Below, one piece after another: positions 4,559 through 17,615 of a DNA stretch of 64,000 nt. The notes under the pieces are model-generated. The model was not told where the DNA came from. It searched no databases and saw only the letters and a program-made list of their open reading frames with translations. Position 1 is the stretch's first letter. The number at the start of each line of letters is the position of its first letter. Source of the DNA: Saccharopolyspora shandongensis (GTDB lineage Bacteria; Actinomycetota; Actinomycetes; Mycobacteriales; Pseudonocardiaceae); contig NZ_FNOK01000025.1 in assembly GCF_900106995.1 (NCBI RefSeq), positions 1 through 64,000 on the forward strand. The letters are read 5' to 3'. The translations under genes were made by a program, and so were the position numbers.

Positions 4559-5365
4559 CTAGCCGAGCTCTGCGCGGATGAAGTCGCGGAAGGAACGCGG
4601 CGGGCGCCCCGTGACGTCCTGGACGGTCGAGGTCGTGCGGTCCTCGCCGCCCTCCCGGATGTGCTCGTCCATGGCCGCCAATCCCGCCGCGAAGTCCGCG
4701 GGCAGCTCCGCCGAAAGCCGCCGGGCCAGCTCGCCCACGGTCATGTCCCGGTGCCGGACCGGCCGCCCGGTGATCTCCGAGATGATCGCCGCGGCTTCGC
4801 CGTAGCTCAACGCCTCCGGGCCGGTCAGCAAGTACTCGTCGGCCACCTCGTCCGAGGTCAGCGCGTGTGCGGCGACCGCGGCGATGTCGGCGGCGTCGAT
4901 CCAGCCGAGCCGTCCCGAACCGGTGGCGGTCACGATCTCGCCGCGCTCCCGGATGCCGTCGGCCACCGGATGCCGGCCGGTGAAGTTCTGCATGAACCAG
5001 GTGGGCCGCAGCACGGCGCAGCCCGGCATCGACGCGATCCGCGCGCGGTACTCCGCCAGCCCCGGCGCGTTCGGCAGCATCGCGGACGACCCCAGCGCGA
5101 CGATCCGGCGCCCGGCGGCGGCCGCCAGGAACGGCCCGACCTGCGGCATCGGGTCGGTGACCCCGACCGGCGGCACCAGGTAGACGCGGTCGACGCCGTC
5201 CAGCGCGCGCCGCTGCGAGTCCGGGTCGGCCCAGTCGAAGCGCACGTGGTCCGGGTCGTCGGCCGGGTGCCTGCTCGCGATCCGGACGGCGATCCCGCGC
5301 TCCCGCAGCACTGTCGCAAGTGGACGGCCGGTCTTCCCGGTGCCGCCGGTGATCAGCACGGTCAC
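4559..5365 (-). CDS. NmrA-like NAD(P)-binding protein
   Basis: Atypical short-chain dehydrogenase/NmrA family. The N-terminus VTVLITGGTGKTGRPLATVL holds the Rossmann GGTGKTG, and the body has PTWFMQNF and the C-terminal RDFIRAELG seen in actinobacterial NAD(P)H-binding oxidoreductases and redox sensors. There is no YxxxK catalytic pair, consistent with a sensor or a reductase of the ergot-alkaloid/NmrA branch. GTG 5365 overlaps the stop of the upstream SnoaL-like gene by four bases (GTGA), so the two are translated together. 268 aa. Substrate unknown. Confidence 0.82.
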   Translation of the reverse strand: MTVLITGGTGKTGRPLATVLRERGIAVRIASRHPADDPDHVRFDWADPDSQRRALDGVDRVYLVPPVGVTDPMPQVGPFLAAAAGRRIVALGSSAMLPNAPGLAEYRARIASMPGCAVLRPTWFMQNFTGRHPVADGIRERGEIVTATGSGRLGWIDAADIAAVAAHALTSDEVADEYLLTGPEALSYGEAAAIISEITGRPVRHRDMTVGELARRLSAELPADFAAGLAAMDEHIREGGEDRTTSTVQDVTGRPPRSFRDFIRAELG

Positions 5366-5796
5366 GAGCGCACCTCGTCGCCCAGCGCGGTCACGAGGCC
5401 GGCGAGTTCCCCGGACGCCTTGGCGCCCATGACCGGGCTCCAGTAGTCGCGGTACGAGGCGATCGCGCCGTCCCGCGCGACGATCACCGCGACGTAGCGC
5501 ATCTCGTAATCCGCGCCGGTCGCCACGGTGCGGCCGCGCGCGGTGAACTCGGCGACGATGGTGCCCGGATCGGCGGTCCGGTGGACGATCACGGACGGGA
5601 AGCCCGCGATGTCCAGCTTCTGCGGGTAATCCGCCAGGTATTCGCGCAGCGCTTCCCGCCCGTTCAGGCGCTCGGGGGTGCCCGCCGCGAACGGGAACTC
5701 GAAGGTGCAGTCGGGCGCGAACAGGTCGACGAACCCGTCCATGTCCTTGGCCAGCAGCAGGTCGAGGGCCTGCTCGAAGAGTTGGTTCGCTTCCAC
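5362..5796 (-). CDS. SnoaL-like (NTF2-fold) protein
   Basis: Small alpha+beta-barrel protein: ANQLFEQALDLLLAKDMDGF starts the long helix, and FAPDCTFEFPFAAGTPERLN and RDYWSPVMGA are typical of SnoaL polyketide-cyclase-like proteins. About 144 aa. The start is uncertain; I use GTG 5796, and no clear ribosome site is seen. It overlaps the NmrA gene by 4 bp and is divergent from the MmyB-type regulator at 5899, which probably controls the pair. Either an isomerase/cyclase or a ligand-binding protein; the substrate is not inferable. Confidence 0.78.
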   Translation of the reverse strand: MEANQLFEQALDLLLAKDMDGFVDLFAPDCTFEFPFAAGTPERLNGREALREYLADYPQKLDIAGFPSVIVHRTADPGTIVAEFTARGRTVATGADYEMRYVAVIVARDGAIASYRDYWSPVMGAKASGELAGLVTALGDEVRS

Positions 5797-5898
5797 GACG
5801 TCCAGGTTCGTCGCCGCGGAGCGCGCCGAGCAGGTCCGCGCTTGCCCCGGATCGGCGGTCCGTGGCTGGGCGGTCCGCCCCGGTGGCAAGGTGGTGAG

Positions 5899-6708
5899 GT
5901 GAACAAGCGCGAGCTGGCCGATTTCCTGCGCCGTCGCCGGGAGGAGCGACGTCCCGGCGATGTCGGGCTGCCCGACGGGGCCGGCCGCCGCCGCACGCCC
6001 GGCCTGCGCCGCGAGGAGGTCGCCTGGCTGGCGGGGGTGTCGACGAACTACTACGAGCGCCTCGAACAGGCCCGCGCGCCGCGCCCGTCGACGCAGGTCC
6101 TCGCGGCCCTGGGCACGGCGCTGAAGTTGTCGGAGGCGGAAGGCGAGCACTTGGCGCGACTGGCAGGGCAGGCCCCGCCGGCGCCGGAGGCCGCGGAACC
6201 GGTGCCGGAAGGCGTGCTGCGGCTGCTCGACCGCCTCGGCCCGATCCCGGCGTACGTGGTGAACGAGCGGCTCGACATCGTGGCGTGGAACGCCCTCGCC
6301 GCAAGCCTGATCACCGATTTCTCGAAGCTGCCGCGCGAAGAGCGCAATTCCCTGCGCCTGTCCATGCGAGGGGTGTGCTCGGCGAACGGCGAGAACCACT
6401 TCGCCCGGCAGGCGGCGGCGGAGCTTCGCCTGGCCGCCGCCCGCCACCCGGACGATCGGGCACTAGTGGCCCTGACCAGGGAATACGTCGAGTTCAGCCG
6501 GGAGTTCGCGGAAAGCTGGCGAGACCACGAGGTCCGGCCCCGCCCAACGCTGCGCAAGCGGATCGACCACCCGGACTTCGGCCCGCTGGACCTGGACTGC
6601 CAAACCCTGCACGTCCCGGGCCAGAAGCACCGCCTGATCCTCCTGTCGGCGGAACCGGGAACCCCGAGCCACAAGGCCCTCGAAGACCTAACGACCGCGG
6701 CCGAGTAG
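5899..6708 (+). CDS. XRE regulator with MmyB-like ligand-binding domain
   Basis: Transcription factor of the MmyB family. Residues 1-80 contain an XRE helix-turn-helix with the family signature RRTPGLRREEVAWLAGVSTN and YYERLEQAR. Residues 95-265 form the PAS-like MmyB domain with YVVNERLDIVAWN and a C-terminal TLHVPGQKHRLILLSAEP. Start GTG 5899 gives the usual VNKRELADFLRRRRE N-terminus. Divergent from the SnoaL/NmrA pair; such regulators usually control an adjacent oxidoreductase. The 3' end overlaps the convergent small membrane-protein gene by 21 bp. Confidence 0.88.
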   Translation: MNKRELADFLRRRREERRPGDVGLPDGAGRRRTPGLRREEVAWLAGVSTNYYERLEQARAPRPSTQVLAALGTALKLSEAEGEHLARLAGQAPPAPEAAEPVPEGVLRLLDRLGPIPAYVVNERLDIVAWNALAASLITDFSKLPREERNSLRLSMRGVCSANGENHFARQAAAELRLAAARHPDDRALVALTREYVEFSREFAESWRDHEVRPRPTLRKRIDHPDFGPLDLDCQTLHVPGQKHRLILLSAEPGTPSHKALEDLTTAAE

Positions 6709-7017
6709 CGCGTGCCGCCCGTAGACCTCGGTCGCCATCTCGCGTTGTCGCTCCATCGCGACGCGCGCGCAGAGCTGCCAAACGCCGAGCGCGCTTTCGC
6801 CTGAGCCCGCGTGCTGCCCGGTCGACCGACCGATCCAGCAGAATCCAACGACGACGAAAACCGACGCAACGAGCAGAAACCCAAACACCGCAATCACTTT
6901 CTCGCCCTTTCCCAGAGGGCCCGGCAGAGGTGGGATTTCGGAGGGAGGGGGCATCCCGCCCCTGCCGGGGGCCTCGCCGCACCGGGCCGGGGGAATGCTG
7001 GGCGGCGAGGCGGTCAT
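6688..7017 (-). CDS. small single-pass membrane protein, unknown
   Basis: 109 aa. A Pro/Gly-rich N-terminus (about 40 aa) is followed by one hydrophobic segment (VIAVFGFLLVASVFVVVGFC) and a short charged tail. No recognised domain. The 3' end overlaps the convergent MmyB-type gene by 21 bp. The strong hydrophobic segment supports coding, but the flanks are low-complexity, so the true start is uncertain. Confidence 0.45.
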   Translation of the reverse strand: MTASPPSIPPARCGEAPGRGGMPPPSEIPPLPGPLGKGEKVIAVFGFLLVASVFVVVGFCWIGRSTGQHAGSGESALGVWQLCARVAMERQREMATEVYGRHALLGRGR

Positions 7018-7029
7018 AGGTGCTCACCT

Positions 7030-7079
7030 GGCCTGTGCGTGTTTTGTGTCGCTATGGCAGCACAAAACACGCACGGGCC
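7030..7079. repeat. palindromic hairpin, GCYATRGC family, copy 1
   Basis: Arms GTGCGTGTTTTGTG and CACAAAACACGCAC pair perfectly, extended by GGCC/GGCC, around the centre GCTATGGC. Related palindromes with the same central octamer occur at 7899, 18975, 29821 and 56801. It lies upstream of the small membrane-protein gene and downstream of the truncated gene ending at 7112. Confidence 0.8.
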
Positions 7080-7111
7080 TTTACCTGCGAAAACAAGTGT
7101 CTGCGGAGGTC

Positions 7112-7320
7112 TCAGAAGTCCCAGACGGTCGATGGCGAGCCGCGTAGTCGGTACTCCGTGACGCATTCCGGGCACTGGTCGGTAATGCTGGCGGTGCGCG
7201 GCGTCGCGGGCCACGACGTCGGCCACGGGATCTTCACGGTTTTGGCAGCAAGACCGCCGTTGAGATCGACGAAGCCGTGAACATCCGGCAGGTGCGCCGA
7301 GGTGTGCTCTACAAGTCGGA
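7112..7320 (-). pseudogene. 5'-truncated conserved small protein
   Basis: The C-terminal part reads DVHGFVDLNGGLAAKTVKIP and ends TDQCPECVTEYRLRG...TVWDF, a small protein type I associate with actinobacterial DUF5753 loci. No plausible start codon with a ribosome site is found, and upstream the frame runs antisense into the truncated XRE gene. I read this as the remaining 3' part of a gene once divergent from that regulator; a deletion near 7300-7320 seems to have removed both 5' ends. The exact upstream limit is approximate. Confidence 0.5.
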
Positions 7321-7683
7321 ACCCGCGACGCTGATGGTGTTCCTGGATGAAGGCGTCCTCGCTCGGCCGGTAGGTGGGCCGCGCGTAGCCGCCGAGCAGT
7401 TCCGGCATGTGCTGAAGGAGACCGAATCGAGGTACGAGTCGCGCCCACGGCTCTCGGGGCGCATCTCGGTCTGGATGGCGGGTTCTCGTTGCTCGAGTTC
7501 GCCCGTGGTAGCGCGAACATCTACGTCGAGGCGCACAACTCCGGTTTGCTGCTGAACGATCCAGCCGAGGAACCTCCGTTCCGAGCCACAACCAGTAGGT
7601 TCGGAGAGGTGGTGCTGAGCCCGGAAGAGTCGGCGCGGCTCATCGCTACCTACGCGGCGAGGTTCGAGAGCGAGGACGCATGA
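7270..7683 (+). pseudogene. decayed XRE/DUF5753 regulator (Scr1-type)
   Basis: Two frames together rebuild the C-terminal half of a DUF5753 regulator. Frame one gives LMVFLDEGVLARPVGGPRVA and EQFRHVLKETES; after about 7430 the reading shifts to GAHLGLDGGFSLLEFARGSA, then EAHNSGLLLNDPAEE and LSPEESARLIA. The join needs a one-base correction, so there is a frameshift. The N-terminal helix-turn-helix is absent. The stop overlaps the start of a DUF397 remnant in the usual order of these cassettes. Confidence 0.68.
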
Positions 7684-9165: not shown

Positions 9166-9203
9166 AAACGGGTGGCGGACCCGTTTGCAATGCGATCGCA
9201 TTG
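9166..9203. promoter_or_regulatory. two candidate TetR operators
   Basis: In the DUF418/TetR divergent promoter, AAACGGGT (9166-9173) and ACCCGTTT (9179-9186) form an inverted repeat with 5-bp spacer. It is followed directly by CAATGCGATCGCATTG (9188-9203), a perfect 16-bp palindrome. Position and symmetry fit binding by the dimeric TetR encoded at 9219 and control of both genes. Confidence 0.6.
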
Positions 9204-9218
9204 GAAAGGTGCGAGACG

Positions 9219-9830
9219 GTGCCCAAGCAGGTGGACCACGAGGCCCGGCGGATCCAGATCGCCGAGGCGCTCATGCGGCTGGCCAGCCGCGGCGGCCTGG
9301 AGGCGGTGAGCCTCCGCGACGTCGCGGCCGAAGCGGGCGTCTCGATGGGCGCGGTGCAGCACTACTTCAAGTCGAAGGACGAGATGCTGGGCTTCGCCAT
9401 GGGGCACGTGAACAACCGGGCCTCGAACCGGATCGTGCAGCGGCTGAGCCAGGAGGGCGAACGGCCGAAGGTGCGCGTGGTGCTGCGGACGCTGATGCTC
9501 GAAATGCTGGCGCTCTCCGACGACAGCCGCATGGAGTTCCTGACGCACATCGCGTTCTTCCTCCGCGCGCTCGGCGCCCCGGACCTGGCCGAGACCTACC
9601 GCGAATGGTGGCCGAAGCTGGAGGAGTGGGTGGCCTCCGAGCTCCGCGCGGCGCAGGAGTCCGGCGAGCTACCCGCCGACCGCGACCCGGAGCGCGAGGC
9701 GGAAGCCCTGCTGCTCATCCCGGACGGCCTGTCGGTCGGCCTGCTGCTGGGCCACCGGACCGGCGAAGGCGCGACCGCGGCCATCGACTACCACCTCGAC
9801 CGGCTCTTCGAGAAGTCCACAGAGGACTGA
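9219..9830 (+). CDS. TetR-family repressor
   Basis: 204 aa. The N-terminal HTH spans about residues 10-55 with EALMRLASRGGLEAVSLRDV, AAEAGVSMGAVQHYFKSKDE. The rest is the helical ligand-binding/dimer domain with C-terminal ATAAIDYHLDRLF, resembling BetI/TetR_C_6 members. I choose GTG 9219 because GGAAAGG precedes it; a TTG at 9201 is in frame. Probably represses itself and the divergent DUF418 gene; ligand unknown. Confidence 0.85.
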   Translation: MPKQVDHEARRIQIAEALMRLASRGGLEAVSLRDVAAEAGVSMGAVQHYFKSKDEMLGFAMGHVNNRASNRIVQRLSQEGERPKVRVVLRTLMLEMLALSDDSRMEFLTHIAFFLRALGAPDLAETYREWWPKLEEWVASELRAAQESGELPADRDPEREAEALLLIPDGLSVGLLLGHRTGEGATAAIDYHLDRLFEKSTED

Positions 9831-11036
9831 TCAGCCGTGGTGCCGGTGGAAGGCGAGCTGATCGCGCACCGGGACGACGCGGTCGAGGTCGGCTTCGTCA
9901 ACGGCGGCAAGCAGATCCACCGACTCGCCGGAGCCGTGGACCGACCCGTGCTGGCCGGGGAAGCGGCCCCCGGGCGCGGACCACACGTCGTGGCGAGAGC
10001 CTGCGGTCGCGAGCGAAAGTCCCTCGGGTTCCAGCTGGTTCAGCCGGATGTCCAGCAGCGCGGCGAAGAGGTTCTCGCCCCGCGAGCGGAAGGTGCGGGC
10101 CGCGGTGGAGATCTCCAGGACGACGCTTCCGCCGTCGACCCACCACCTGGCATCGGCGTGCGCTGCCCGGTCTCCGAGCAGGAGCACCTGGCGAGTGACC
10201 GGAACGCCCTGCGGATACGGCGTCGGCGCCCGATGCGCCTCGCGCCTACCCGCGCTCGGCGATCGCTGGGCCGGTACTCGCTGGCCGCCGGTCAGCTGCC
10301 CGACGAAACCGGCCGGATCCTCGGTGAAGCTGGCGCCGACGAACGCCTTCGCGGCCGAGAGCGTCCCGGATACCAACCCGCCGATGGTCTCGCCGTACTG
10401 CTGCGAGGGAGCTTTGTCGGACGCCAGCAGCAAGGTCTTCACGAGGTTCTTCGCGGCGTCCTCGACCTGGTTCTTCGCGGAGTCGATCGAGGCTCGCGCC
10501 TGGTCGTGGGCGGTGCCCGGATCCGGACGCGGCTCGGCGGCGCCGGCCTGCTCGACATCCGCGCGCGCCCGCTCGGCCTGCCGCTGGGCCCAGGCCAGCA
10601 CGTCGCGGTACCGCTGCATAGCCCGGGCGGATTCGGTGAAGTCGTCGGTCGCGCGGAGCGACTCGGGGGTGATCCCGTGCAGCGCCACGGCGTGCTCTTG
10701 CAGCGGATCCAGCAGCACGTTCGTGCCCTGCGGCAGGCCGGGCAGATACCCGTCGAGCAGCCGCGCGCCGGTGAGCACCAGGTATTCGGCCCGGTCGCCC
10801 TCGCCGCGCCGCCGCCGGTACTCGGCGAAGTACCGCAGGTCCGAGAACACCGGCAGCCACGGGGCCTCGGCCACGTGCACGACGGGCACGGCCGGCGGAT
10901 CGGACGCGCACTCCAGGTACACCCCGCTGCGGCGGAAGGTGGCCACCAGATCGGCCGGGCGCTGCACGGTTCGCCGGAACCGGAGAGCCTCCCGCACCAG
11001 CGGTGGCCCATCCGGAACGCACGTCGCCGAACCCAT
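9831..11036 (-). CDS. mosaic protein: SseB-like + secretion-linker + immunity-like tail
   Basis: 401 aa in three blocks. Residues 8-112 are an SseB-type domain nearly identical to the protein at 16039 (shared PLVREALRFRR, LPVFSDLRYF, YLVLTGARLLDGYLPG). Residues about 120-250 match the N-terminal half of the toxin at 13415 (RYRDVLAWAQRQAE, FVGQL) but lack its WXG start. The last 125 residues (ARWWVDGGSVVLEIS; ENLFAALLDIRLNQLEPEGL) resemble small immunity-type proteins of actinobacterial toxin loci. GGAGGAGAC precedes ATG 11036. I infer a recombination product; whether it still works is unknown. Confidence 0.6.
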   Translation of the reverse strand: MGSATCVPDGPPLVREALRFRRTVQRPADLVATFRRSGVYLECASDPPAVPVVHVAEAPWLPVFSDLRYFAEYRRRRGEGDRAEYLVLTGARLLDGYLPGLPQGTNVLLDPLQEHAVALHGITPESLRATDDFTESARAMQRYRDVLAWAQRQAERARADVEQAGAAEPRPDPGTAHDQARASIDSAKNQVEDAAKNLVKTLLLASDKAPSQQYGETIGGLVSGTLSAAKAFVGASFTEDPAGFVGQLTGGQRVPAQRSPSAGRREAHRAPTPYPQGVPVTRQVLLLGDRAAHADARWWVDGGSVVLEISTAARTFRSRGENLFAALLDIRLNQLEPEGLSLATAGSRHDVWSAPGGRFPGQHGSVHGSGESVDLLAAVDEADLDRVVPVRDQLAFHRHHG

Positions 11037-11302: not shown

Positions 11303-11515
11303 TCAACCATCCGCCCCAGGCTCGGTTCTGGGAGCGGAGGGCTTGGGTTTGGTCGGCAGCGGGACCTCGGCGTGACGTTGTGCCAGCGACTCGGAGACGA
11401 CCTCGCCACGTTCCTGCATGTCCTGGATACGCTGTCCGATCTGCTGCCTGCGCGCCTGCGCGTCAGGGCCATCCGATGGCGTATCGAACTTGCGGATCAG
11501 ATCTTCGTGGTTCAT
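11303..11515 (-). CDS. small charged protein, unknown
   Basis: 70 aa: MNHEDLIRKFDTPSDGPDAQ, then a predicted amphipathic helix (RRQQIGQRIQDMQERGEV) and a Pro-rich tail. No known domain. It lies 105 bp downstream of the ADP-ribosylglycohydrolase-like gene in the same direction and resembles in size and character the small gene at 13154. It could be an accessory or immunity protein of the toxin locus; inference from position only. Confidence 0.5.
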   Translation of the reverse strand: MNHEDLIRKFDTPSDGPDAQARRQQIGQRIQDMQERGEVVSESLAQRHAEVPLPTKPKPSAPRTEPGADG

Positions 11516-11619: not shown

Positions 11620-13008
11620 TCATGAGGCCGGGTACCGGTGGAGCCAGGCCTCGTTGGTCGGCGGGTTGGGGCCGTGCTCGGTGAGTGCGTCTTTGGCGAG
11701 GGTGTCGACGACCTCGGCCAGTGGTACCGCGGCACGCAGGTCGGCGGGGATCGCGCGCACACCACATTCAGCACCGATCAGCATCCCGGTGATCGCCCCG
11801 ACTACCGGGCGGTGTGCTGAGTAGTTCATGGCCAGCTGCAGCGCCTCACGCACGTAGTCGCTGGCCATCGCGCAGTACAACCCGAGCCCAAGCGCTTCGG
11901 CGCCGTCGCGGCCGCCATCGCCGAAAGGCTTGCGGATGTTTTCCGGGGTGGTGGGCACCCAGTAGTCCTTGTTCATGATCAGTGCGAGCTCGATTTTGCG
12001 GAGCACGCGCGCGTTTCGTCGAGGCCAGCGCTCCAGGTGTGCACGGGCGGTCGTGAGGCAGTCGTGGAACGGCTGATCGCGGATCTGCTGGTGCAGGATT
12101 ACCGCGAGCGTGCCTGCGGCCAGGCAGTCGTCCGGGCTGCTGTGTGTCAAAACAGCGATGTGGACTGCGGCCGCGAACACCTCGGCGGGATCATCGGCGC
12201 ACACCGCCGCCATAGCGGCCCGAGGCACCACCTCGCTGCCGCGGGCGTGGGCGCGCATTTTGCGGAGCCTCGAGTGCTGGCCGGTGCGGGCGAAGTTCTC
12301 CAGCGCCGCCACCGTGTCTGGGTGGGGGGCGCCGTCGCGGCGCAGGCTGTCTACGCCGACCAGCCAGCCGTCCGGCTCGGGCGCAGCATAGGGGCCGCAG
12401 TGCTCCCAGCCACGTCGTTGCCCGTCTGGCGTGGGCTGGGTGTGCAGCCACCGTTGGTAGGCGTGCTGAACGACCGCCTCCGGTTCGCTGTCCCCTTTGG
12501 TGATGCGGTGGGCGACGTCGGCTCGGATGATCCCCTCCAGCGTGAAGGCGAGCAGCTGAGTCACGGCCGACGACTCAGCCGCGCTGTCGCGGAGGGAGTA
12601 CTCGGTGAGTGCCTTCTCCCCTCGCAGTTTCACAGCAGGCGACCAGGGCAGCTTTGCTGTAGCGCAGGAGTCGACGGCGCAACCGAGCGCGTCCCCGACC
12701 GCTGCGGCGAGTACGGCGCCCCGAAACCGTTCCGCGGTATCGGGTTCCGGCAGGTGCCGACCAGTGCCGGGGTCGCGGCCGTCGATCTCCCGCACGCGGC
12801 GGTCAAAATCCACAATCGCGTCCAGCGGAGCGTGCACGTCGACGTAGTGGAGGTTGTAGTCACTTCCTTCTTTCCGGCCCTGCGGCCGGAAATCCGCTCG
12901 ATGCTCGGTGCGCCGGGTCCAATCGTCATGCCAGCGCCCGACCTTGCCGCTGCGCCGGGACCGCTGCCGCACTGGCCAGCCCTTCGGAGCCACTCGCTCG
13001 TCTCTCAC
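11620..13008 (-). CDS. ADP-ribosylglycohydrolase-fold protein lacking metal-site aspartates
   Basis: 462 aa. Residues 94-445 follow the DraG/ARH fold: RFRGAVLAAAVGDALG, FTLEGIIRA, LTHSSPDDCLAAGTLAVI, EALGLGLYCA and GAITGMLIGAECG. Active enzymes carry a Thr/Ser-Asp-Asp-Thr cluster and a late Asp-x-Asp cluster that bind two Mg ions. Here the aligned residues are SSAV (146-149) and HRPV (399-402), so both clusters are gone. GDALG (105-109) is retained. The gene follows an ADP-ribosyltransferase toxin, suggesting an immunity protein that works by binding rather than hydrolysis. The first 90 residues are not part of the fold. Start GTG 13008. Confidence 0.72.
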   Translation of the reverse strand: MRDERVAPKGWPVRQRSRRSGKVGRWHDDWTRRTEHRADFRPQGRKEGSDYNLHYVDVHAPLDAIVDFDRRVREIDGRDPGTGRHLPEPDTAERFRGAVLAAAVGDALGCAVDSCATAKLPWSPAVKLRGEKALTEYSLRDSAAESSAVTQLLAFTLEGIIRADVAHRITKGDSEPEAVVQHAYQRWLHTQPTPDGQRRGWEHCGPYAAPEPDGWLVGVDSLRRDGAPHPDTVAALENFARTGQHSRLRKMRAHARGSEVVPRAAMAAVCADDPAEVFAAAVHIAVLTHSSPDDCLAAGTLAVILHQQIRDQPFHDCLTTARAHLERWPRRNARVLRKIELALIMNKDYWVPTTPENIRKPFGDGGRDGAEALGLGLYCAMASDYVREALQLAMNYSAHRPVVGAITGMLIGAECGVRAIPADLRAAVPLAEVVDTLAKDALTEHGPNPPTNEAWLHRYPAS

Positions 13009-13025
13009 AGCTTCTTAATCCCCCG

Positions 13026-13084
13026 GCGTGCTCCTGAAGCGAATCCAGCAGCACGCTCGTGCCCTGCGGCATACCGGGAATTCG
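13026..13084 (-). pseudogene. fragment of an SseB-like gene
   Basis: On the minus strand this reads IPGMPQGTSVLLDSLQEHA, matching LPGMPQGTSLLLDPLQEH of the protein at 16039 and the equivalent part of the mosaic protein at 9831. No start, and stops on both sides. A third copy of the same module, reduced to about 60 bp between the small gene and the hydrolase-like gene. Confidence 0.72.
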
Positions 13085-13153
13085 TAAGGAAGCTCCCGCG
13101 TAGTTCGAGATGTTCGGCGTTGTGTTGCGGCCAGGGGGCGCTGGCCGGGACGC

Positions 13154-13411
13154 TCATTGTTGGGTCTCGTCACCTGTCCGACGCTGATCCTGGTCTGGTC
13201 CGGTGAGGGGGAATGGCTCCATGTTGCTGTCCAGCCCGATGGGGAAGTTCTCCTTGCTCCACGATTTCAGCACTTCGCCGCGAGCGATCTTTTCGTTCAT
13301 ATACCGGATTGCCTCGTCGGTCTCCTTCCTGATTTCTGGGTCGATGTCCTCCGGCTTGGGCAAGTGCTTGCGGAGCAATGCTTCACGCTCTTCACGCTCT
13401 TCAGGGGTCAT
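13154..13411 (-). CDS. small acidic/basic helical protein coupled to toxin, possible immunity
   Basis: 85 aa, highly charged: MTPEEREEREALLRKHLPKP, then DEAIRYMNEKIARGEVLKSW. No recognised domain. Its ATG (13411) is 3 bp after the toxin stop codon and its ribosome site AAAGGAAA overlaps the toxin end, so it is translationally coupled to the toxin. Genes in that position are often immunity or chaperone genes, so it competes with the hydrolase-like gene for the immunity role. Confidence 0.62.
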   Translation of the reverse strand: MTPEEREEREALLRKHLPKPEDIDPEIRKETDEAIRYMNEKIARGEVLKSWSKENFPIGLDSNMEPFPLTGPDQDQRRTGDETQQ

Positions 13412-13414
13412 GGC

Positions 13415-15550
13415 TTAGTTTCCTTTCCCTAGGTCTCGCATGACAACATACATTTCTTCATCAGCGGCTCGCGTTTCGCGTACCAGGAAACGATTGCCGT
13501 CCTGCCACATGACCTCTAGCTCGTCCGGATTCGTCACGGACAGGTCTCGGGCGTTCCGGGGGTCTTCGATGATGAACCGCACCTTGTAGGGCTTCTCGGT
13601 GCCGTGTTCTGAGAACATCGCTGGTGGGATGTCCTTTGATGCCGAGGTGAACCCCGGCTCTTCTACTTCCGCACCGGGCTTGTAGCGCTGCAAGATGGCG
13701 TCGAATTCCTGCTTGCTGACGCCGATGTCGCGAAAGACTCGCGGCGTTTCGGTGGTGTCGACCTTGGACATCTCGTCGAGCGCGCTGCGTAGCACGTTGG
13801 CCTCGGGCCCGACGTAGTCCCGGTCGACCTCGTCTCCTTCACGCAAGACGCGGTTGAGGGTGTTGGCGTCCTCGCCGATGTAACGGCGCAGGCCCATCGC
13901 TTTCTCGTCGTCCAGGTGGGCGAGTTCGGGATGGTCCTCCCGCAGCCGAGCCACGCTCTCTTCGAACGAGACTCCGGTACGCGACTCGATGCGTTCACGG
14001 TATGTCTGCCGGTCCTCGTCGGATAGCTCGTGGCGAGGCTCGCCGTGCGGTTCCGGCTCGGGTCCGCGTGGCGCGGTCTCAGCCGCCCCGTCCTGGTCGC
14101 GCTGTCCGGTTGGATCCTCATGGCGGTGCGTTTCCGGCTGGTGGTCAGGGCGATCGTTGTGCTGCTCCGGGGCTTCCTGGGATGGTGGCTCCCCGCCATG
14201 TTCCCGCGTGCTGCCTCTCCCCGCGTCATCCCACGGGTCACCCCAGTCGAGGTCATCATTCCTGTTCGCCCCGCGTCCATAGGTCGGGCGCGGCTGGTCC
14301 TGGTTGCCCGGCTGAGTGTCCCGTGCGGGCGTGTCGTGGTCGGGCCCGCGGTCCCACCCGCTGCCCTGCGGTCCGAACGGCTTCCCGTTGTCCGGGATCG
14401 ACTGGAGTTCGGGCGAGTGGCTCATCGGGGGCGAAGAAGTGTGACCCCAGGACGCGGTGGGTGGTTGTGATGGCGGTTCAGGAGTCCAATTGCTAGGCGT
14501 GGAATGAGACTGGGGGGTCGGGTGGGCAGGGTTCGGGTTCTGTGGGGCCGGGTGCGCGTTCGGCTGGATTGGTGGGTGCGTGGAGGCATTCGGGACGACG
14601 TCCGGGAGATGAGCCGGGGTCTTGTTCTTGTCGCCGAAGAAGTCCGTGACAGTGTCCAGCGCCCGTCGGCCCAGCGTGCCTGCTGTGCTGCTGCCGCTGG
14701 TGGCCAGGCCGGCTGCTACCTCCGGGGCCAGGCGTCCGACGAAGCCGGACGGGTCCTTGGTGAAGCTGTCGATTCCCGCGCCGATCATCGCTTTGCCGGT
14801 GCCGATCGGGTCGCTGATGAACGCCTTGCCCGCCGCTACCGTGCTGCCCGCCAGCTGGCTGATGTTCTCGCCGTACTGCTGCGGGTGCATCACGTTGTAC
14901 GGGTCGAACGGGTTCAGCGTTCGCGCCTGCTGGAGCATGTCCAGCGCGCCGTCGAAGCTGCCCTTCCAGAAGTCGCCGTAGGACTCTGCGACGTTCTGGA
15001 AGACGTCCTCGAAACCCGAGGCGAGCATGGTGAGCGGCCCGGGCTGCGGGGGTGCTTTTTCGGACGCCTTGATCAGCGTTGCCGCGGCCCTCTTCGCCGC
15101 TTCTTCGACCTGCTCCTTCGCGGCGTCGAGGGCGGCCTGCGCCTGGTTGCGGGCGGCGGCGCCCGGGTCCTGGAACGGCTCGGTGGCGTTGCCCTGGTCG
15201 GCCGCCTGCTCGTACTTGGCCTCGGCCTGCGCGGTCTGCCGGTCTGCTCGCTCGATGTCGGCGCATGCCTGCTCGGCCTGCCGCTGTGCCCAGGCCAGCA
15301 CGTCGCGGTACTGGCGCAGGGCGTCGGCGGACTCGGTGAAGGCGTCCGCCGCCCGGAACCACTTGGGCGGTTCTTGCTGGTAGTAGTCGCGGAACGCGTC
15401 GGCGGTCGGGCCTTCCCAGCCAGCGGTGTTGATCTTCTGGAAGCCCTGGGCGGCGTTCTCGAACGCGGTGCCCAGCTTGGTCATGGTGGCCAGGGTTTCG
15501 TCGATGGCAGGCAGCTCGCCCGGGACCTCTTCCCTGGGGTCCGGTGCCAT
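13415..15550 (-). CDS. type VII-secreted polymorphic toxin with ADP-ribosyltransferase domain
   Basis: 711 aa. Residues 1-120 are a WXG100-like export region (NTAGWEGPTADAFRDYY, RQYRDVLAWAQRQAEQ). Residues about 215-310 have QYGENISQLAGSTVAAGKAF and DPSGFVGRLAPEVAAGLA, typical of toxin N-domains of this group. A Pro/Asn/Gln-rich linker runs to about 510. The C-terminus has the R-S-E marks of arginine-type ADP-ribosyltransferases: RVFRDIG (about 604-610), FTSAS (634-638), and ExE in DELEVMWQDGNRFLV (E677, E679). It would transfer ADP-ribose from NAD to a target protein in a competing cell. ATG 15550 overlaps the partner stop by one base; the small gene at 13154 follows. Confidence 0.85.
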   Translation of the reverse strand: MAPDPREEVPGELPAIDETLATMTKLGTAFENAAQGFQKINTAGWEGPTADAFRDYYQQEPPKWFRAADAFTESADALRQYRDVLAWAQRQAEQACADIERADRQTAQAEAKYEQAADQGNATEPFQDPGAAARNQAQAALDAAKEQVEEAAKRAAATLIKASEKAPPQPGPLTMLASGFEDVFQNVAESYGDFWKGSFDGALDMLQQARTLNPFDPYNVMHPQQYGENISQLAGSTVAAGKAFISDPIGTGKAMIGAGIDSFTKDPSGFVGRLAPEVAAGLATSGSSTAGTLGRRALDTVTDFFGDKNKTPAHLPDVVPNASTHPPIQPNAHPAPQNPNPAHPTPQSHSTPSNWTPEPPSQPPTASWGHTSSPPMSHSPELQSIPDNGKPFGPQGSGWDRGPDHDTPARDTQPGNQDQPRPTYGRGANRNDDLDWGDPWDDAGRGSTREHGGEPPSQEAPEQHNDRPDHQPETHRHEDPTGQRDQDGAAETAPRGPEPEPHGEPRHELSDEDRQTYRERIESRTGVSFEESVARLREDHPELAHLDDEKAMGLRRYIGEDANTLNRVLREGDEVDRDYVGPEANVLRSALDEMSKVDTTETPRVFRDIGVSKQEFDAILQRYKPGAEVEEPGFTSASKDIPPAMFSEHGTEKPYKVRFIIEDPRNARDLSVTNPDELEVMWQDGNRFLVRETRAADEEMYVVMRDLGKGN

Positions 15551-16038
15551 CAGCCGTCCACCTTGGTGTTGTAGCCCGCCTGGTTCAACACGTGCGAGGC
15601 GGCTTGCTGCGGCATGCCAACTGGTGCGATGTCGACCCCGAACTGCGCGAACGACTTCTGCGGGGCGGCGTTCAGATCAGCGGTGGGGTTGTCGAACCCG
15701 GCGCCCAGGACCTTCTTGAACGCGTCGATCGCCGCCTGCTCCATCTTCTCGTACTCGGAACGGGTGTCGGTCAGCGCCGATGCCGCGGCGGCACCTTCTT
15801 CGACCAGGAACTTCACCCCGTATTCCCACCGGCCGCAGAACCTCTTCAGCGCCTCGGTGACCAGCGCCGACCCGGACTGCTCCGCATCGAGGTTCATCAT
15901 GGTGACGCCGTGGCCGTCGTTGCCCATCTTCCGCACGGGCCACGGAAGTTCGTTCTCCAACGCGGCGATGGCGTCGCCCACGCCTTGCGACGCTTGTTGC
16001 AGCGCCGCCAGATCGACGCGGAATCCATCGTTACCCAC
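15550..16038 (-). CDS. WXG100/EspC-like type VII secretion partner
   Basis: 162 aa, mostly helical: VDLAALQQASQGVGDAIAAL, RFCGRWEYGVKFLVEEGAAA and SEYEKMEQAAIDAFKKVLGA resemble helical-hairpin ESX substrates and their cognate partners in actinobacteria (WEYG being a WxxG turn). It immediately precedes the toxin with a TGATG overlap, so the two are probably made and exported together. GTG 16038 follows directly after the TAA of the SseB-like gene. Confidence 0.75.
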   Translation of the reverse strand: MGNDGFRVDLAALQQASQGVGDAIAALENELPWPVRKMGNDGHGVTMMNLDAEQSGSALVTEALKRFCGRWEYGVKFLVEEGAAAASALTDTRSEYEKMEQAAIDAFKKVLGAGFDNPTADLNAAPQKSFAQFGVDIAPVGMPQQAASHVLNQAGYNTKVDG

Positions 16039-16521
16039 TTACAGCGTCCCTCCCCAAGCACGCTTGACGGGTTTCTCGTACGGAGACTGCGCGGACACCG
16101 GGCGATCCGGCCGGTTTCGATCCACTGCGATCGATTCGGCGAGGATTCCGCGCAGTGCGGGCAGCGTCACCGAGTGCTCCTGCAGCGGATCCAGCAGCAA
16201 GCTCGTGCCCTGCGGCATGCCCGGCAGGTATCCGTCCAGCAGCCGGGCTCCGGTGAGCACCAGGTACTCGGCCGCCAGGTCGCCTTCGCCGCGCTGCCGC
16301 CGGTATTCCGAGAAGTACCGCAGATCCGAGAACACCGGGAGCCACGGAATCCCGTCCACGTGCACGACCGGCACGGTCGGCGGGGCGGACACGCATTCCA
16401 GGCAGACGTCGGCCCTGCGGAAAGTGGCCACCAGATCTTCCGGACGCTGCATGCTCCGCCGGAACCGGAGCGCTTCGCGCACCAGCGGTGGCGCGTCCGC
16501 AACGGACGCCAATGAACTCAT
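16039..16521 (-). CDS. SseB-like domain protein of the secretion locus
   Basis: About 160 aa. Residues 1-110 match SseB N-terminal domain proteins (RFRRSMQRPEDLVATFR, GIPWLPVFSDLRYFSEY, ARLLDGYLPGMPQGTSLLL), common beside actinobacterial ESX substrates. I start at ATG 16521, preceded by GGGGGGA; an ATG 21 bp upstream is also open. It is first in the operon SseB-WXG-toxin-small gene. Degraded copies exist at 9831 (N-terminal fusion) and 13026 (fragment). Biochemical role unknown. Confidence 0.75.
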   Translation of the reverse strand: MSSLASVADAPPLVREALRFRRSMQRPEDLVATFRRADVCLECVSAPPTVPVVHVDGIPWLPVFSDLRYFSEYRRQRGEGDLAAEYLVLTGARLLDGYLPGMPQGTSLLLDPLQEHSVTLPALRGILAESIAVDRNRPDRPVSAQSPYEKPVKRAWGGTL

Positions 16522-16595
16522 GATCCCCCCGTAACCGTTCATGCACGGCGCGCAACGACGCTAGCCGATCAGCAACCGGGAAATCCGCCCAAAAC

Positions 16596-16665
16596 TCGTG
16601 GCCTACACCATAGAAAGCATTAGGCCGAATGGCGGTAAGTGATCAGATGTCAACCTCGGCGTAAC
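16596..16665. repeat. duplicated segment, right (parental) copy
   Basis: Counterpart of 11118-11185. It spans the last codons and stop of the YigZ/IMPACT gene and the spacer preceding the SseB gene, so this is the original arrangement and the left copy the duplicate. The two copies share GGCGGTAAGTGATCAGATGT exactly. Confidence 0.75.
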
Positions 16666-17263
16666 CGAGCTCGCCTGGCTCCGCTTCGGCGACGCCGCCG
16701 GTGGCCTCCGCCAGCCAGGTGCGAAAGGCGTCCACTTCGGACTCCGGGACGTTGATGCGGAAGCGGACCGCGTCCTGGTAGTCGGTGTCGGCCACCTGGT
16801 AACCGGCCGAACGCAGGTCGTTGTCGAGCTTCCCGGCCAGCAGGTAGTCCACTGTGGTATCCACGGCGCGGACCGGGCGGCGTTCGACCAGGCCGACGTG
16901 GTCCAGCGCCGCCGACACCGCGCCGCCGTAGGCGCGCACCAGACCGCCCGCGCCGAGCAGCACCCCGCCGAAGTAGCGGGTCACCACGGCGACCGAGTTG
17001 GTGATCTCGTTGCGGCGCAGCACCTCCAGCATCGGCACGCCCGCGGTGCCCGCCGGCTCGCCGTCGTCGCTGGACTTCTGGAACTCGCCGGCGTCGCCGA
17101 GGACGAACGCGGAGCAGTGGTGCCGCGCGTCGTGGTGCAGCCTGCGCCGCTGCTGGATGAATTCCCGGGCCTCGGCCTCGCTGGCGACCCGCGCCAGCGC
17201 GCACAGGAAGCGGGACTTCTTGACCTCCAGCTCGTGCTCGCCCGGCCGCTTGATCGTCCGCAT
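16643..17263 (-). CDS. YigZ/IMPACT family protein
   Basis: 206 aa. The N-terminal IMPACT domain has KKSRFLCALARV, HCSAFVLGD and SDDGEPAGTAGVPMLEVLR, then RYFGGVLLGAGGLVRAYGGA; the C-terminal DUF1949-like part ends in FRTWLAEATGG. These conserved cytosolic proteins bind nucleic acid or ribosomes; in eukaryotes IMPACT regulates GCN2. ATG 17263 is the only start giving the family N-terminus MRTIKRPGEHELEVKKSRF. A housekeeping gene marking the edge of the accessory locus. Confidence 0.92.
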   Translation of the reverse strand: MRTIKRPGEHELEVKKSRFLCALARVASEAEAREFIQQRRRLHHDARHHCSAFVLGDAGEFQKSSDDGEPAGTAGVPMLEVLRRNEITNSVAVVTRYFGGVLLGAGGLVRAYGGAVSAALDHVGLVERRPVRAVDTTVDYLLAGKLDNDLRSAGYQVADTDYQDAVRFRINVPESEVDAFRTWLAEATGGVAEAEPGELGYAEVDI

Positions 17264-17417
17264 CGGTCCCCTTCGCCAGGTGATGCCGCTCGCCGCCGCG
17301 CGGCGGTCCTCGCGGTCCATCCTCCCACTCCGGTAACAGTGCAGGTCAGCGCGGTGATGGGGGCTCGGGTCGGAGGCGATTTCCGTTGCAGCCCGCGGGC
17401 ACGTAACGTCCCCCTTT

Positions 17418-17615
17418 ATGGAGCAATCATCGAGCCCGTTTGAACCAGGCGTGCGGGTGCGCGCCACGTTCGGCCGGTTCCGTGATCAGGTCGGCACGGT
17501 GGTGGAGACCGCCACCGGTCTTCCTGAGGTCTTCGACGGTCCCGTCCTGTGGGTGCGGTTCGACGGAGGCGACGAGCCTGGCCTGGTTGCGGGGAGATTC
17601 CTGGAAGCGGCCTGA
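17418..17615 (+). CDS. small KOW-like conserved protein
   Basis: 65 aa: PGVRVRATFGRFRDQVGTVV then GLPEVFDGPVLWVRFDGGDE. The spacing RVRATxGRFRDQVGTVVE resembles a KOW-type SH3 fold as in ribosomal proteins and NusG. ATG 17418 is the likely start. It stands alone between the divergent IMPACT gene and the monooxygenase. Function unknown; perhaps nucleic-acid binding. Confidence 0.6.
   Translation: MEQSSSPFEPGVRVRATFGRFRDQVGTVVETATGLPEVFDGPVLWVRFDGGDEPGLVAGRFLEAA

Follow-up and report, generated by a model that had tools for sequence, protein, structure and literature searches.

A pseudo-ADP-ribosylhydrolase downstream of a putative type VII ADP-ribosyltransferase toxin in Saccharopolyspora shandongensis is likely the orphan antidote of a lost toxin

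Introduction

Which of the genes behind a polymorphic toxin encodes its antidote? The question is raised by a locus of the soil actinobacterium Saccharopolyspora shandongensis, situated in the 64,000 nucleotides (nt) of contig NZ_FNOK01000025.1 (assembly GCF_900106995.1, positions 1 to 64,000) that we analysed, from here on the window. A toxin gene with a putative C-terminal ADP-ribosyltransferase (ART) domain is followed there, second downstream, by a gene for a protein with the fold of ADP-ribosylhydrolases (ARH) that lacks both metal-binding clusters, and a gene of 85 amino acids (aa) intervenes. The initial annotation had described this arrangement correctly, and had read the outer two genes as a toxin and its non-enzymatic immunity protein. 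We consider it likely, instead, that a toxin cassette was swapped at this locus, that the live pair consists of the ART and the 85-aa gene, and that the metal-less protein, hereafter the pseudo-ARH, is the orphan antidote of a lost, GNAT-like toxin. Loci, genomes and contigs are given where needed by our own handles (L, G and C; G000 is the window's genome, a draft of 134 contigs).

Results

The window's type of pseudo-ARH recurs behind another toxin. The sole locus from the initial search for relatives, in S. subtropica (L019), holds a protein with 67% identity in which the N-terminal 86 residues are likewise present and the metal sites likewise lost; its start lies on the stop codon of a toxin with a type VII secretion system (T7SS) signal and a non-ART C-terminus, which we call GNAT-like. 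Among 390 genomes of the family, for which the best first-look candidates per genome were scored, this toxin domain was found in 15 at E ≤ 0.001 (11 at E < 1e-100) and the N-terminal domain of the pseudo-ARH (N-domain) also in 15. The two occur together in 12 genomes (hypergeometric p = 9e-18, genome relatedness not being corrected for), the N-domain and an ART in 2 (p = 0.64), one of which is the window's own. All 12 pairs have an antidote gene that begins before the toxin gene ends: the overlap is 4 nt in ten of them, 1 nt in L154 and 11 nt in L111, whose antidote start is unsure. Of the 15 genomes, then, 12 have the GNAT-like toxin directly upstream of the N-domain type and none has an ART there, the ART of the window being second upstream, which does not support the pairing proposed in the initial annotation. 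In three genomes the N-domain was found and the GNAT-like toxin was not: that of the window, G182, where the gene is an orphan, and G173, where a decayed fragment is left. G328, G279 and G112 gave weaker GNAT-like matches and no N-domain match. For the window's genome all 70 of 70 candidates were scored, and none was a GNAT-like toxin at E ≤ 1; its only N-domain is that of the window, bar a chance-level match (E = 0.79). The antidote frame is intact, and its presumed toxin was not found in the draft.

The toxin/antidote pair is mounted on varied toxins: a YigZ-SseB-T7SS-signal locus in L019, T7SS-signal toxins in L106 and L107, and large toxins near ARH genes in L101 and L108 to L112. In L154 (G181, 5346-7543) the GNAT-like domain is carried by a Phage_min_cap2 protein, and the N-domain follows alone, as a protein of 90 aa. 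Since it stands by itself behind this phage-borne toxin, in one genome, the N-domain is likely the antidote proper; it is probably the immunity determinant, with the ARH part as a non-catalytic body. On a prophage-like Micromonospora plasmid (L180:1413-4264), a protein whose GNAT-like end is 29% identical is followed by an overlapping open reading frame (ORF) of 83 aa, which gave no match to the N-domain. Nine plasmid and phage records matched the GNAT-like domain, three of them annotated as acetyltransferase or GNAT (two being one phage), and no N-domain was seen in the three of the nine that were opened.

The pseudo-ARH protein itself has 462 aa, of which residues 97-422 match ADP_ribosyl_GH (PF03747, E = 1e-33, 117.7 bits against a cut-off of 26.2). 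As the initial annotation had noticed, the positions of the metal-binding residues are taken by SSAV and AHRPV, where intact paralogues of the same genome have SDDT or TDDT and GDSDS; we take these motifs to be the ones named metal clusters I and II. An acidic RDSAAE lies just upstream of SSAV, and because its acidic residues are not conserved among relatives, a shift of the metal ligands to other positions is unlikely and was rejected on the alignment. Neither complete cluster is kept in any row of the alignment of 12 relatives. The fetched loci gave 106 ARH-domain matches, and among the 70 usable ones (≥300 aa and both motifs covered, with fragments and the duplicate L105 dropped) 33 are intact, 22 partial and 15 without any motif. 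The 13 ARHs of the N-domain type comprise ten without a motif, three partial ones that keep one Asp and none that is intact, and they group at 99 (SH-aLRT) amid intact ARHs, so that metal loss is clade-wide. A second, partial subclass of pseudo-ARH, with TDLT/TELT-like and xDSxV motifs, is separately conserved, its 10 rows forming one group with a support of 100 (L011:7196, L094:14090, L095:2812, L099:16094, L101:11406, L108:4830, L109:4526, L110:4542, L161:13686 and L162:2094). Frames of 785 and 1643 aa made of several ARH domains were also seen in the same genome as the window (L012, contig C59, 44000-60000).

Between the window and S. subtropica, dN/dS of the pseudo-ARH gene is 0.34 (N-domain 0.26, ARH part 0.37), a constraint that also spans the time before the toxin was lost, and the window copy has changed less than its relative (26 window-only against 54 L019-only changes). 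With this ratio and no acceleration, the reading of the gene as a pseudogene was rejected.

A trace of the missing toxin may be preserved at the start of the gene. Before the GTG of the pseudo-ARH, an overlapping frame reads GIKKL-stop, with a 4-nt overlap as in the relatives, and the GNAT-like toxins end in GVKRL-stop (L019, L106) or GVKKL-stop (L107, L110); the pattern G.K[KR]L stands at 1 of the 741 [AGT]TGA sites on both strands of the window. This is probably the fossil tail of a lost GNAT-like toxin. Adjoining and partly overlapping it is a 22-residue scar of an SseB gene, and on account of the two together the simplest reading would be that deletion of a second SseB-to-toxin unit left its antidote behind.

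The toxin upstream is probably a secreted ART whose signal domain is of the type VII kind. Its residues 4-170 match T7SS_signal (PF21725, 120.7 bits against a cut-off of 27), which bears out the export region of the initial annotation. The ART domain is weak by profile (PF03496 at 11.7 bits, under its cut-off of 23.4; the XopAI model at E = 0.0028 and 16.9 bits against 300), and its motif was likewise borne out in an alignment read by eye: all 15 usable rows show the Arg, the [FY]xS motif and the last Glu, a sixteenth row (L011) having been mis-cut and left out, and ten of them, including the window, also show the first Glu of ExE. A sequence search of the PDB with the ART gave nothing useful, and PADLOC one weak match, on the coiled region of the toxin (E = 0.0075).

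What, then, would protect against this ART? A search puts the family of the 85-aa gene at 11 places in 10 of the 390 genomes, at eight of them directly 3' of an ART with no intervening gene (p = 3e-6 by genome). The gap is 3-12 nt at seven of these; the eighth, L095, has a gap of 139 nt and an unsure start. Because of these eight places, the 85-aa gene at 13154 is probably the ART's own partner. Of the other three, two are orphans, one in G345 (L100) and one in G351 (L102), where the toxin is deleted; the third, again in G345 (L101), is fused to an ARH array. In G201 (L093) a small domain of the 85-aa type is fused to an intact ARH.

Read from the side of the ART, the picture is broader. The search listed 75 ART places in 54 genomes, and the 3' neighbour was read at 16 loci: the 13 best of the 75 and that of G354, plus C54 and L155, whose ARTs were found only with the C54 ART as query (L155 lies on a different G328 contig than the listed place of that genome). 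Left out were mostly giant frames of genus g11, and also G350 (L162). The neighbour belongs to the 85-aa family at nine of the 16 loci (L161 by a weaker match, E = 8e-4), to a related 70-aa type at L103, and to another kind of gene at L104; at L155 it is a fusion of a motif resembling the small gene, recognised by eye, to a pseudo-ARH. At the remaining four (L097, L098, L099 and C54 of the window's own genome) a pseudo-ARH of 401-412 aa with a different N-terminus follows, overlapping the ART by 4 nt in C54 and separated from it by 3 nt in G353, G358 and G349. By this tally, metal-less ARH-fold proteins do recur next to toxins in the family, and the adjacency of ART and pseudo-ARH that the initial annotation proposed is real in C54 and in three congeners (G353, G358 and G349). 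At these loci it does not involve the window's type of pseudo-ARH, and the two genes of the window are probably not such a pair. The 85-aa type as the most frequent ART neighbour at the loci read comes close to the case that the initial annotation had itself set against its pairing, namely protection by the small gene. A common origin of the 85-aa gene and the N-domain was rejected (profile probability 0.1%).

The C54 locus (L011, 130000-149000) has in one row an ART toxin of 1257 aa, a pseudo-ARH of 401 aa, three ARH proteins (723, 1108 and 1347 aa) and a protein with a TNT domain; the row lies near the genes for ribosomal S12 and S7, and intact and degenerate ARH copies are mixed in it.

The features of the window are collected in Table 1. 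The product preceding the toxin is, we assume from its position, EspC-like, and that of the regulator-like gene presumably a TetR. In G348 (L103) the flanks (YigZ, TetR and DUF418) are 93-94% identical to the window's, and the interior holds a variant ART, a gene of the 70-aa type and a similar SseB/T7SS-signal chimera, with no pseudo-ARH match between the conserved flanks. By this comparison, the window appears to contain a single live pair, together with two antidotes that are orphans and two scars left by deletions. The YigZ/DUF418 locus of G345 carries yet another, third toxin C-terminus (L100:8466-11388, a 635-aa frame), and the orphan copy of the 85-aa gene, 79% identical, lies further down.

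Table 1. Genes, domains and putative remnants at the toxin locus of the window
Feature	Position	Strand	Basis
UPF0029 (YigZ-type) protein, one conserved flank	16643..17467	-	Profile; loci of relatives
SseB-domain protein, first gene of the toxin operon	16039..16542	-	PF07179, E 4e-4, 21 bits (equal to its cut-off of 21); homologues in the same place in several relatives
Small toxin partner protein	15550..16038	-	No family above cut-off; homologues precede the toxin in several relatives
711-aa polymorphic toxin: T7SS signal N-terminus, Pro-rich linker, putative C-terminal ART (R-S-E) at about 13418-13930	13415..15550	-	Profile and motif
85-aa gene, probably encoding the immunity protein to the ART; its family has the motif IGLDxNxxPFP	13154..13411	-	Starts 3 nt behind the toxin stop; family neighbourhood
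SseB scar, 22 residues	13016..13081	-	73% identity to SseB 106-127, E 5e-5
Probable fossil tail of a lost GNAT-like toxin, GIKKL-stop	13005..13022	-	4-nt overlap with the pseudo-ARH start; resemblance limited to the last five codons
N-terminal domain (86 aa) of the pseudo-ARH protein	12751..13008	-	In L154, a separate protein that follows a GNAT-like toxin
Pseudo-ARH domain, with SSAV and AHRPV in place of the two metal clusters	11620..12750	-	Whole ORF 11620-13008
70-aa orphan relative of the 85-aa gene	11303..11515	-	Profile probability 95.9% to the 85-aa family; in L103 the homologue follows another ART at a distance of 13 nt
Chimera (401 aa) in which SseB is joined to an internal part of the T7SS signal region, probably a scar of a deletion	9831..11036	-	Similar chimera in L103
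Regulator-like gene, other conserved flank	9201..9830	+	Same flank in L019, L100, L102, L103

Discussion

What can be seen directly is the order of the genes, the conservation of their neighbours, the loss of the metal motifs, a relic resembling a toxin tail and constraint on the pseudo-ARH gene; these are most easily joined by a history in which the C-terminal cassette of a type VII-type polymorphic toxin island was swapped while older antidote genes were left in place. The 85-aa protein would then most likely bind the ART directly and block it. The pseudo-ARH would be the orphan antidote of a second, GNAT-like toxin domain, possibly an acetyltransferase, that was deleted here; its 86-aa N-terminal domain would probably recognise this toxin and protect by occluding it, and its ARH part would be a former hydrolase retained as a non-catalytic body.

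Several points weigh against this history. Further copies of either domain may have been missed, since only the best first-look candidates were scored, and a toxin could lie in a gap of the draft genome. The relic consists of five codons, its pattern was set post hoc, and the residues before it are unlike those of the relatives. The ARH tree is a quick search with long branches flagged, and a long-branched row from L155 falls inside the N-domain group. Pfam GNAT matches of the second toxin domain are below cut-off in three of six members and absent in the other three; hhalign against 15 GNATs of the window's genome gives 58% (E = 9.7e-5; the best of 30 column shuffles reached 0.5%), and the AlphaFold model, whose order of helices and strands reads as GNAT-like, is of low confidence (pLDDT 56.8). 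A PDB profile search brought mostly coiled-coil matches and one GNAT at E = 1.5, which is no support. The sequence evidence thus weakly suggests a GNAT-like domain, and we do not call it a GNAT. Lastly, because L097 to L099 and C54 pair an ART with a pseudo-ARH, some role of the window's pseudo-ARH against its ART is possible.

Could the pseudo-ARH instead be a functionless relic on its way out? Its orphan position between scars would fit, as would the decayed fragment in G173, a frame change at the junction of N-domain and ARH part in G369, and the share of the measured constraint that predates toxin loss. We nevertheless think this unlikely in view of the intact frame of 462 codons and the constraint without acceleration. 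Alternatively, an orphan may have been recruited after the swap as a second, accessory antidote to the ART; the gene is constrained although its toxin was not found, and an ART locus with two antidotes, a blocker and an ARH, is in print (PMC11699363). We hold such recruitment to be distinctly unlikely, as the ARH antidote of that system is catalytic and the metal site of the window's protein is gone, and retention would be explained equally well by protection from the toxins of neighbours or by a recent loss of the toxin. Highly improbable, in our estimate, is the dedicated immunity protein of the initial annotation: the two genes do share a strand, two genes apart, and ART/pseudo-ARH neighbours exist (with the fusion in L155 as a further case), but the N-terminus of those pseudo-ARHs is not that of the window's protein, whose type directly follows the GNAT-like toxin in 12 of 15 genomes and an ART in none; a probable relic of another toxin stands at its very start, and the 85-aa gene intervenes. 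That the ARH domain still binds or acts on ADP-ribose through other ligands is hardly credible, for although the fold and many columns are conserved, neither cluster is complete in the 13 clade members, three of which keep one Asp.

A more general view, to which we give an even chance, is possible for these actinobacteria: the ARH fold may serve as a general, often non-catalytic antidote body onto which toxin-specific N-domains are plugged, one against the GNAT-like toxin and another against ARTs, the site being lost where the toxin is not an ART. Genuine ART/pseudo-ARH pairs would exist as well, and the short domains would also travel alone, including with a toxin borne on a phage capsid protein. 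Should this be true, a hydrolase fold would have become an antidote that works without catalysis against a toxin of unrelated chemistry, and its recognition part would be separable and mobile. The domain alone, the domain with a pseudo-ARH, a small domain with an intact ARH, and an ART with a pseudo-ARH would form a natural series in which one can ask when immunity proteins keep or lose catalysis, while the tail-like relic makes the history of one orphan readable from sequence.

How does this compare with known systems? In the Tre1/Tri1 pair of type VI secretion (T6SS), reportedly described by Ting et al. in 2018, the immunity protein is said to have an ARH fold and an N-terminal region that also blocks the toxin. 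The window's protein differs in secretion type and toxin, has no catalytic metal site, and scores 25.5 bits with the Tri1 equivalog model, far below the cut-off of 490. In the literature surveyed (titles and openings of abstracts, with few subscription papers) we found no metal-less ARH as an immunity protein and no such pair with a GNAT-like toxin. ARH-fold immunity to ARTs, polyimmunity and a fusion of Imm35 to an ARH are, by contrast, already in print: in Zhang et al. 2012 (PMC3482391), Imm-ADP-RGHD is an enzymatic, ARH-fold immunity protein with D/D[DE] residues whose partner is Tox-ART-RSE, and Imm35 is in some instances fused to ADP-ribosyl glycohydrolase, which gives the joining of an immunity domain to an ARH a precedent. 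Common to those systems and the present loci are ARH-fold immunity beside polymorphic toxins, the T7SS as one export route of RSE-type ARTs, and polyimmunity loci and proteins. The present loci depart from those systems in that the window's ARH site is lost and its recurrent partner is not an ART; actinobacteria are absent from the corresponding list, and neither GNAT nor acetyltransferase has a match in the accessible text.

Comparable, too, is Bxa with Bsi and BAH, from a Bacteroides stercoris prophage, which combines an ART, a blocker and a catalytic ARH (PMC11699363); L094, L095 and the fusion in L093 resemble it in having an ART, a small, presumably blocking protein and a nearby ARH gene. 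BAH depends on a catalytic Glu; in the window, by contrast, a small gene stands with an ARH that has lost its metal site and belongs to a type found paired with a different toxin. Immunity of the PARG type to an RNA-targeting ART has been described too (PMC11833690). The phage-borne L154 is like the MuF phage toxins, with its GNAT-like domain on a minor capsid protein followed by a small ORF, although neither acetyltransferase nor GNAT has a match in the main text of that paper (PMC5576092). Finally, orphan immunity genes are known at T7SS and T6SS loci (for example PMC9484751 and PMC10539506), where antidotes without, or beyond, a cognate toxin likewise stand at recombining loci; unlike those, the antidote of the window is a pseudoenzyme, accompanied by a probable relic of the last codons of its lost toxin.

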